35,493 bases of DNA from the NCBI GenBank assembly GCA_018821985.1, contig JAHJKP010000023.1:1-35493 (forward strand). The letters run 5' to 3'. This document shows, in pieces, positions 29,156 through 31,200 of this stretch; position 1 is the first letter of the stretch, and every line of letters starts with the position of its first letter. The notes beneath the pieces are model-generated. The model searched no databases. It worked only from the letters and a program-made list of their open reading frames with translations, and was not told the DNA's origin. The position numbers were made by a program, and so were the translations under genes. Source of the stretch: Pseudomonadota bacterium (lineage in GTDB: Bacteria > Desulfobacterota > Desulfobulbia > Desulfobulbales > Desulfocapsaceae).

Positions 29156-29198
29156 AAGAGCCATAACGAAAGAGTTTAATTCTTTCGTTATGGCTCTT
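29156..29198 (-). terminator. Intrinsic terminator of the typA transcript
   Basis: A perfect 18-bp inverted repeat (29156-29173 with 29181-29198) has a 7-nt loop. Read on the minus strand it is followed by TTTTTATGTCG and a further T-run, as expected for a terminator of typA and the small ORF. On the plus strand the hairpin is followed by A, so it is weaker for the Nudix gene. The stop codon of the small ORF overlaps the first arm by two bases. Confidence 0.8.
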
Positions 29199-29358
29199 AA
29201 AAAATAGTCCGCAGTATCCAGAACACAACAAGCCCCATACCTATGGAGCCGTAAAGCATCAGTCAAGGGATACAGTCACTGCCATATTTCCTGGCAATGA
29301 ACCCGAAGGTCGCCACCCCAACTACCCCGGAGACGATAAAAATCAGCAGATCCTTCAT
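29197..29358 (-). CDS. Candidate small selenoprotein, two-helix membrane protein with CxxU
   Basis: On the minus strand, ATG 29358 begins 9 bases after the typA stop. It reads MKDLLIFIVSGVVGVATFGF, then IARKYGSDCIP, then TGA (29263-29265). The same frame continues as LMLYGSIGMGLVVFWILRTI-F to TAA (29197-29199). If UGA is selenocysteine this is a 53-aa protein with two hydrophobic helices (about 4-22 and 37-52) and a loop containing C29-I-P-U32, a CxxU redox motif. A hairpin fitting a bacterial SECIS follows the UGA (29232-29249). UGA ends other genes here normally (13699, 17083 and 23140 frames), so it is not a reassigned Trp codon. Alternatives are a 31-aa peptide ending at UGA, or a point-mutated gene. 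No family is recognised. Confidence 0.6.
29232..29249 (-). promoter_or_regulatory. SECIS-like hairpin after the in-frame UGA
   Basis: On the minus strand GCUCCAU (29249-29243) pairs with AUGGGGC (29238-29232): seven pairs, one of them U-G, with loop AGGU. Twenty bases separate the UGA from the loop, and a G is among the first two loop bases. Both match my recollection of published bacterial SECIS rules (loop about 16-37 nt after UGA). No bulged U as in E. coli fdhF is seen. Folding was done by eye. Confidence 0.5.
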
Positions 29359-29367
29359 CCCCTGGCA

Positions 29368-31170
29368 TTACCCCCTGATCCGCACGTCACTTTTTTTCCG
29401 CAGCCGGATTGACATCGGTGTTACCTCAACCAGTTCATCGTCATTGATATAGGCAATACAATCTTCCAGAGTCAGAGCCCGGGGAGGGGTCAGGATTACC
29501 GCCTCGTCCGAACCGGAGGCCCGCATATTGGTCAGCTTCTTGCCCTTACCCGGATTGACCACCATATCTCCTCCACGAGAACTTTCACCAATGATTTGTC
29601 CAGTGTACAGGGGCGCACCGGGATGGATAAAGAGTGTGCCCCGCTCCTGGAGATTGAAGAGGGCGTAAGCCACCGCTGTGCATGGTTCTTTAACCAGCAA
29701 TACCCCATTGAGCCGGTTCTTTATCTCTCCGGCATAAGGGCCATACTCGGCAAAGACATAACTCATCATCCCCATACCTTTGGTGTCGGTCATGAACTCG
29801 GAACGATAGCCCAGCAGACCGCGAGTCGGGATCTTGAACACCATCCGCATCATCCCGCCATGACCGGTGCTCATCTCTTCCATCTGTCCCTTCAGTCTAC
29901 CTAGCTTTTCAATAACCGCCCCCTGATACTTTTCGTCCACATCTATGGTAAGCGATTCGAAAGGTTCCATGATTTTGCCATTTTCCTCTTTCATGATCAC
30001 CTGCGGCCGGGTTACCTGAAGTTCATAGTCTTCACGGCGCATCTTCTCAATGAGGATGGAGAGATGCAGCTCACCTCGACCGGATACCCGATAGCCGACC
30101 GCATCAGTCAGGGGTTCATAATGCAGTGCCACATCGGAAAGGACCTCACGGGCCAGACGCTCTTCAATATGTCTGGAGGTCACAAACTTCCCCTCTTTGC
30201 CGGCAAAGGGTGAATCATTGGGGATAAAATTCATGGAGATGGTGGGCGGATCAATGGCGACCAGGGGCAGAGGCATTGGATTGTCCAAAGAAGTAAAGGT
30301 GACTCCCACGGTCACGTCATCCATACCGGCAACGGCTATAATCTCTCCGACCCCAGCGCTGTCGATGGGCACCTTGCCATCAGATTCAAAGCGATAGATC
30401 TTGGAGATCCGCACCGGTTTGATAGAGCCATCACGACGAGCCACTGCCAAAGGCTGATTAATGGAGATAGTACCATTAAGCACCTTACCAATACCCAAAC
30501 GTCCAAGATACTGGGAATAATCAATGGTGCTTATCTGCAACTGCAGGGGAGCATCTGGTGAACCTGTGGGGGCTGGAATATGCTCGGTGATCATCTTGGA
30601 GATAATCTGCATCCCCATGCCGCCCTCTATCGGGTCATCAGGATCAGCCATGGCATACCCATCCTTGGCTGAGGCATAGACAACCGGAAAATCAAGGACA
30701 TCGTCCGGGGCATCGAGCTTGACAAAAAGGTCAAAGACCTGATCGAGAACCCAGGGACAGCGTGCCGCGGGTTTATCGATCTTGTTAATCACCACAATAA
30801 CCGGGAGTTTATTCTCAAGGGCCTTTTTGAGTACAAAATAGGTCTGAGGCATGGGCCCTTCCTGGGCATCAACCAGCAGCAGCGCCCCGTCAGCCATACG
30901 CAGCACCCGCTCGACCTGGCCGCCGAAATCGGCATGGCCCGGGGTATCAATGATATTGATGGAAAAGTCTTCGTACTGATACGAGCCATTCTTGGCAGTG
31001 ATGGTAATACCTCGCTCCCGCTCCAAATCCCCGGAATCCATGAGTCTTTCAGCCACATCCTGATTATCACGGAACATCCCGGAATATTTGAAAAGCTGAT
31101 CAACCAGTGTGGTCTTGCCATGGTCAACATGGGCGATAATGGCCACGTTACGAATTTTTTCCTGTTTCAT
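29368..31170 (-). CDS. typA: Ribosome-associated GTPase TypA/BipA
   Basis: A 600-aa translational GTPase that acts on the ribosome, mainly under stress or cold. The G-domain motifs are present: AHVDHGKTTL (G1), DTPGHADFG (G3), NKIDKP (G4) and SAKDG (G5). Beta-barrel, EF-G III/V-like and C-terminal BipA domains follow, with LGYRSEFMTDTKG and the GKGKKLTNMRASGSDE region in usual order. I choose ATG 31170, preceded by GGGAAGAGGAA. A TTG at 31197 is in frame but gives a nine-residue extension not found in the family. An intrinsic terminator lies only 30 bp upstream, so its promoter arrangement is unusual. A small UGA-containing ORF follows after 9 bp. Confidence 0.97.
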   Translation of the reverse strand: MKQEKIRNVAIIAHVDHGKTTLVDQLFKYSGMFRDNQDVAERLMDSGDLERERGITITAKNGSYQYEDFSINIIDTPGHADFGGQVERVLRMADGALLLVDAQEGPMPQTYFVLKKALENKLPVIVVINKIDKPAARCPWVLDQVFDLFVKLDAPDDVLDFPVVYASAKDGYAMADPDDPIEGGMGMQIISKMITEHIPAPTGSPDAPLQLQISTIDYSQYLGRLGIGKVLNGTISINQPLAVARRDGSIKPVRISKIYRFESDGKVPIDSAGVGEIIAVAGMDDVTVGVTFTSLDNPMPLPLVAIDPPTISMNFIPNDSPFAGKEGKFVTSRHIEERLAREVLSDVALHYEPLTDAVGYRVSGRGELHLSILIEKMRREDYELQVTRPQVIMKEENGKIMEPFESLTIDVDEKYQGAVIEKLGRLKGQMEEMSTGHGGMMRMVFKIPTRGLLGYRSEFMTDTKGMGMMSYVFAEYGPYAGEIKNRLNGVLLVKEPCTAVAYALFNLQERGTLFIHPGAPLYTGQIIGESSRGGDMVVNPGKGKKLTNMRASGSDEAVILTPPRALTLEDCIAYINDDELVEVTPMSIRLRKKSDVRIRG

Positions 31171-31200
31171 TTCCTCTTCCCTGACCCCTTGGATCAAAAT

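Follow-up and report, generated by a model that had tools for sequence, protein, structure and literature searches.

In membrane thiol oxidoreductases of the DsbB/VKOR type, one CxxC-type pair is located where a membrane helix ends; these proteins have at least four helices and possess a second Cys pair. The mercuric transport protein MerT comprises about 116 residues and three helices. The gene product described here has 53 residues and a predicted Cys-x-Pro-Sec (CxPU) motif. In the accessible text of PMC13188914, the predicted CxxU selenoproteins AhpD-like, SELENOW-like, and GrdA combine Cys-x-x-Sec with an in-frame UGA and a SECIS hairpin located within the coding sequence, features that the 53-residue protein shares, but it differs from all three in its length, its two predicted membrane helices, the absence of an NCBIfam or Pfam match, and the occurrence of Cys forms in one genus only. 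Like the Sec-containing putative MerT listed in the same source (PF02411; C/SxxU), it is small, predicted to be a membrane protein, and has Sec after Cys; unlike MerT, none of 29 members matched PF02411. It also resembles the hypothetical selenoproteins DG, DW, and DF of deep-Sep (PMC12013277) in its occurrence in Desulfosediminicola and Desulfosarcina and in having no known domain, but its CxPU motif differs from the GUxG of DG and the GxU of DW listed in the PMC13188914 catalogue, which gives no motif for DF. We conclude on comparative grounds that the 53-residue frame almost certainly encodes a selenoprotein, with Sec being inserted, as we infer, in the living cell. The comparison of sequences showed that coding continues across the UGA, that a hairpin and the Sec machinery are present, and that Sec and Cys are exchanged between orthologues at one locus.

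The window, i.e., the whole stretch of DNA analyzed, is 35,493 nucleotides long. The putative selenoprotein gene is on its minus strand at 29197..29358, running from an ATG through 53 codons to a TAA stop, and its predicted product is MKDLLIFIVSGVVGVATFGFIARKYGSDCIP-U-LMLYGSIGMGLVVFWILRTIF. The initial annotation had described a 53-codon minus-strand frame with one in-frame UGA, starting 9 bases after the typA stop and ending at the typA terminator, and each of these points was confirmed. Codon 32 is TGA (29263..29265, minus strand), the Sec codon of the CxPU motif, and its counterpart in the orthologues from genomes G037 and G050 is TGC (Cys). The codon for Cys29, the partner of Sec32, is at 29272..29274 on the same strand and is invariant in 29 aligned members. 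The ATG is 9 bases past the stop of typA (bipA; 29368..31197, minus strand), which was identified with TIGR01394 (850.6 bits, over the cut-off) and whose true start may be inside the listed ORF. The frame runs up to the border of an inverted repeat with a T-run (29156..29198, both strands) that probably serves as a terminator in either direction, and a NUDIX-domain gene (PF00293; 28699..29154, plus strand) converges on the selenoprotein gene from the other side. typA and the selenoprotein gene are probably in one transcript.

Across the 29 aligned members, C29, P31, U32, Y36, G40, and L49 are invariant. In 13 congeners the mean DNA identity was 0.768 for the part preceding the UGA, 0.858 for the part following it, and 0.356 past the terminal stop, with pN/pS values of 0.27, 0.36, and 0.90, respectively, and mismatches tracked codon position inside the frame only (0.156, 0.044, and 0.227 for the three positions after the UGA). 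The terminal stop varies, being TAA in 51, TGA in 37, and TAG in 25 of 113 distinct sequences, whereas the inner stop was TGA at all 47 places found in a search of 58 genomes. Bacterial selenoproteins are recognized by a conserved in-frame UGA at one position with coding that continues beyond it, and this is the pattern observed. If translation instead terminated at the UGA, the product would be a single-helix peptide of 31 residues and the conservation downstream would have some other cause. The downstream hairpin is conserved too, so RNA structure could explain part of the DNA conservation, but substitutions after the UGA follow the in-frame codon positions, four of the six invariant residues are at or after the UGA, identity drops to 0.356 past the terminal stop, and orthologues in genus g19 have an uninterrupted frame. 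We therefore regard termination at codon 32 as hardly credible. Homologues ending at position 31 and unrelated residues after the UGA were two observations that the initial annotation held to speak against a selenoprotein; the part after the TGA proved to be conserved in homologues, with Y36, G40, and L49 invariant in the 29 members.

A UGA-aware search for homologues had also been proposed, and when the genome itself and 57 relatives were searched in six frames, relatives retaining the TGA were found, with a match at an E value of ≤0.0021 in 45 of the 58 genomes. Such recurrence goes well beyond what chance would give. The matches represent 47 places, a few of them partial (e.g., in G013 at a contig end), and 47 of 47 have exactly one stop, always TGA. 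Weaker rows above an E value of 0.0021 were rejected or set aside; those of G037 and G050 among them are the Cys orthologues. In one genome, G027, the selenoprotein gene occurs three times (C1:178732-178890, C41:44205-44351, and C42:1825-1971), two of the copies being apparently identical. In the order Desulfobulbales, 211 of 257 genomes matched at an E value of ≤0.01, including 134 of 148 good-quality genomes, and matches were obtained in 59 of 69 genera. Among the matches listed, each contains a single in-frame TGA, which falls at position 32 in the CxPU motif; one of the 211 matching genomes is that with the G050 Cys form. Judged by these genome searches, the predicted selenoprotein family is near-universal in one order. 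It is rare in the rest of the phylum: of 395 genomes, 22 gave a match, and 15 of these belong to the order. Among the seven outside it, G096 alone held a family member on translation, and the matches in G059, G103, G148, G183, G199, and G272 were non-members.

A scan of GTDB species genomes for the TGA pattern returned 107 stretches, and 78 of the 80 examined belong to the selenoprotein family, the other two (L143 and L157) being chance pattern matches that were dropped. The stretches are labeled mostly as Desulfobulbaceae, as relatives, or only as "Deltaproteobacteria" or "Proteobacteria," with one labeled Desulfonatronovibrio and one Desulfovibrio; viral contigs contained no match to the pattern. 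Desulfofustis glycolicus and Desulfogranum mediterraneum, both of the order Desulfobulbales, are among the cultured carriers. For further comparison, 134 loci were drawn from two overlapping sources (54 plus 80, with 19 shared), leaving 113 distinct loci after removal of duplicates and the two chance matches. typA is upstream at 70 of the 113 and mtnA downstream at 28, never both, and neither is present at 15, some of which are near contig ends (with duplicates included, 83, 31, and 20 of 134). The NUDIX gene is present at 75 of the 83 typA-type loci. No functional link is read from the typA and mtnA neighbors.

Whether orthologues carry Cys or Sec at position 32 was a further point raised in the initial annotation. 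Both occur: G037 and G050 (family f2, genus g19) have CPMC and CPAC, respectively, with Cys codons and no stop, and the Sec codon is found elsewhere. The two Cys genes are upstream of mtnA (named by TIGR00512), an arrangement that they share with 28 of the 113 distinct loci carrying TGA. Homologues with Cys at the Sec position are another mark by which selenoproteins are recognized, and G037 and G050 provide them at the mtnA locus. Neither of these two Cys orthologues has a SECIS-like hairpin. They (L063 and L064) no longer have Tyr36 or the Gly-Ser-x-Gly stretch either, and therefore the conservation after Sec may partly serve the hairpin and not the protein. Use of a Cys orthologue as the query against the 257 genomes gave matches in 39; the two from g19 are Cys forms, most other rows are the TGA family, and there was no further convincing Cys member. 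The odd rows in that search were G559 (no stop, within a 355-aa frame, E value of 0.004), G506 (one TAG), and G532 (two TGA). A pattern scan of genome contigs for Cys at position 32 gave 25 matches and no relative, a narrow negative since the flanking residues specified are unlike those of the real Cys orthologues.

The predicted bacterial SECIS-type hairpin is at 29231..29250 on the minus strand. Its position and its AGGU loop (29242-29239), starting 20 nt after the UGA, are as given in the initial annotation, but the stem has 8 bp and not 7 bp. With an energy of −9.8 kcal/mol, it was evaluated against the limits for bacterial SECIS elements printed in the accessible text of PMC13188914, and 83 of the 113 distinct sequences were within these limits, compared with 209 of 2,260 synonymous randomizations. 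The energy limit was missed by 30 of the 113, and 5 had no hairpin in a scan that counted unbroken stems only. In 82 of the sequences the distance from the UGA to the start of the loop is exactly 20 nt, and in 50 the loop reads AGGU.

Two of the stem pairs, 18/33 and 21/30, join third codon positions. Watson-Crick pairing was found in 75% of the sequences at columns 18/33 versus 36% in shuffles and in 88% versus 74% at columns 21/30, and in each case none of 1,000 shuffles reached the observed value. Columns 22/29 and 23/28 covary as well and 20/31 are invariable, while the outer stem pairs 19/32, 17/34, and 16/35 showed no covariation among the 113 sequences. When the partner was shifted by one or two columns, the summed excess fell from 0.73 to between 0.02 and 0.10. 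On a tree built from the N-terminal part, using the 110 sequences complete there, double Watson-Crick changes and breaks numbered 20 and 14 for 18/33, 7 and 9 for 21/30, 13 and 14 for 22/29, and 3 and 3 for 23/28, compared with 0 to 6 double changes for four control pairs of third positions. Codons 39 (29244-29242) and 41 (29238-29236) of the minus-strand gene face each other in the stem, and because they pair there, residues 39 and 41 vary jointly, the commonest combinations being Ile-Met (36), Ile-Val (13), Val-Thr (12), and Ala-Ala (10). The SECIS stem thus couples two amino acid positions, a clear case of RNA structure shaping its host protein.

The genome contains selB (391.5 bits), selA (628.5 bits), and selD with one TGA (380 bits), all over the cut-off. 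Among the 58 genomes, selB was over the cut-off in 51 and tRNA-Sec in 52. Of the 45 gene carriers, 40 have selB (not G011, G012, G013, G026, and G055), and 42 have tRNA-Sec over the cut-off (not G011, G026, and G041). Among the carriers without selB, completeness is only about half for G011 and G013, and a piece of selB is present in G012, while G026 and G055 have no such explanation. The initial annotation had suggested a check for the sel genes, which accordingly turned up selA, selB, and selD, but canonical selC was not found in the assembly although it is present in most congeners. In G002 and G012, selC is within a conserved region (86% identity over 2,286 bp) that contains glyQ (TIGR00388). 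In G002 (C7, L039) it is found at 1472-1565 beside glyQ at 460-1356, a region that appears to be missing from the present assembly despite a stated completeness of 99.85%. The assembly matches just a 46-base stretch of this 3-kb glyQ-selC region, while its typA is 98% identical to that of G002. Since glyQ should be essential, the missing region is likely to be an assembly gap. With this caveat regarding selC, the proposal of a small membrane selenoprotein with a CxxU motif is supported, none of the three observations named as speaking against it (the two given above and absence of selB and selC) having been borne out.

Cys-type opal tRNAs (selC*/ReC) have a tRNA-Sec-like body, U73, and a UCA or GCA anticodon and are charged by CysRS. 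The only UCA tRNA over the cut-off in the assembly is 99 nt long, scores 58.7 bits as tRNA-Sec, and ends in U73-CCA. It is located at L037:1566-1664 (G000:C6:147365-147463) between hdrA-like and mvhD-like genes. Near-identical copies occur in G012 and G016, and canonical selC is also found in G006, G009, G012, and G016. From its sequence, the 99-nt tRNA may be a Cys-accepting opal tRNA. In the accessible text of PMC7609411, selC* tRNA-Cys is Cys accepting with U73 as a Cys identity element, in some cases with UCA, and has an 8/4 shape; the 99-nt tRNA shares the tRNA-Sec-like body, UCA, and U73 but was read as 7/5 or 8/5. In G044 (C104:7084-8328), a second, shorter selB (289 bits) adjoins a second tRNA-Sec-like gene (89 nt), like published selB*/selC* pairs.

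These observations bear on whether a Cys-type opal tRNA, working with SelB and the hairpin, might read the UGA as Cys, always or at low selenium, to give a CxPC product. Such a reading would fit the fact that the sole UCA tRNA over the cut-off in the assembly is the U73-bearing gene, as well as the tolerance of Cys at position 32 in the G037 and G050 orthologues. We nevertheless consider it quite improbable: most gene-bearing genomes among the 58 have canonical tRNA-Sec; selA and the TGA-containing selD, needed by Sec users only, are retained; the 99-nt tRNA, as read here, does not show the 8/4 shape described for selC* (PMC7609411, accessible text); and if Cys sufficed, drift from TGA to TGC or TGT would be expected, which was seen in g19 only. 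A more elaborate form of the Sec reading is conceivable, though unlikely in its entirety. An almost Sec-only, order-core family would have residues 39 and 41 dictated by the hairpin (Ile-Met, Val-Thr, or Ala-Ala), and where a Cys-type opal tRNA is also present, the UGA would be filled by Sec or Cys according to the selenium supply, making the change from CxPU to CxPC a selenium-sensing switch.

Hydropathy analysis of 109 members revealed two membrane stretches and a charged loop with a mean net charge of +1.39, compared with +0.09 and +0.71 at the termini; because of this charge balance, a cytoplasmic loop is weakly favored. An AlphaFold2 model placed helices at residues 2 to 25 and 30 to 52, and CxPU falls where the second helix starts (mean pLDDT of 73.8, pTM of 0.42). 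The two-helix membrane topology put forward in the initial annotation is thus backed by hydropathy and by a model of moderate confidence, and the protein is predicted to sit in the membrane. It resembles DsbB/VKOR in the predicted placement of a CxxC-type pair at a membrane helix end but differs in its two predicted helices, in having no second Cys pair, in the absence of a sequence match, and in the loop orientation weakly favored by charge. Since a C-x-P-C motif that opens a helix is commonly a thiol redox site, a membrane thiol/selenol switch is favored, and the CxPU protein would be thiol-redox active. Given that it is a selenoprotein, we place the chance that it is a redox switch rather than something else at about even.

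In the proposed mechanism, the SECIS hairpin just downstream would guide SelB in delivering selenocysteinyl-tRNA, allowing the UGA at codon 32 to be passed. The product would fold into a membrane hairpin of two helices, with the Cys-x-Pro-Sec pair where the second begins. Sec32 would react with an oxidant or with the disulfide of a partner, and Cys29 would resolve the resulting selenenylsulfide, making the protein a membrane-bound thiol/selenol redox switch. No gene neighbor at the 113 loci points to a redox partner. The main functional rival is the binding or passage of a soft metal or metalloid (Cu, Hg, or As) through Cys29 and Sec32 in place of disulfide chemistry, a role that we consider possible but on the unlikely side. 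Several transport-linked selenoproteins have been connected with resistance to metals or metalloids, Sec being the proposed ligand (PMC13188914, accessible text), and 1 of the 29 members touches an FeoB-associated Cys-rich family at noise level (E value of 0.07). However, no metal gene was a repeated neighbor at the 43 loci without an adjacent typA that were examined, and the only invariant residues of ligand type are Cys29, Sec32, and Tyr36.

Searches of Pfam and NCBIfam with one member or with 29 members gave no match beyond noise, the best being an E value of 0.001 for one member to a channel accessory family, and PDB sequences gave no match (best E value of 0.78). There was likewise no match to the NCBIfam or Pfam models of the 119 catalogued prokaryotic selenoprotein families, some of which have no model in either library, or to NF049953, NF041197, and NF049942 (DG, DW, and DF) in the NCBIfam scans, provided that the library includes those models. 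No fitting entry was found in the accessible parts of the 2026 catalogue of 119 families (PMC13188914) or of the 2022 list (PMC9312934), and literature searches, with most subscription journals outside their scope, found no report of the 53-residue protein. The family is therefore likely to be absent from print. According to the accessible text of PMC12013277, the deep-Sep method was applied to Desulfosediminicola ganghwensis, where its five new families are other proteins, and its authors noted that selenoproteins without Cys homologues may be missed, though all known ones seemed to have them.

As far as the accessible parts of the PMC13188914 and PMC9312934 catalogues extend, this is a widespread predicted selenoprotein family missing from both, a new family of a known kind of protein. 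Ordinary gene reading splits the gene at the UGA, and its product has therefore been invisible so far, so that in an order of sulfur-cycling bacteria a gene matched in 134 of 148 good-quality genomes was overlooked. With Cys forms in one genus only, within the genomes searched, the family also illustrates the blind spot acknowledged by the deep-Sep authors. At 53 residues, the product could be made by chemical synthesis, and the family leads to a question open to experiment: what role selenium plays in the membranes of these anaerobes.
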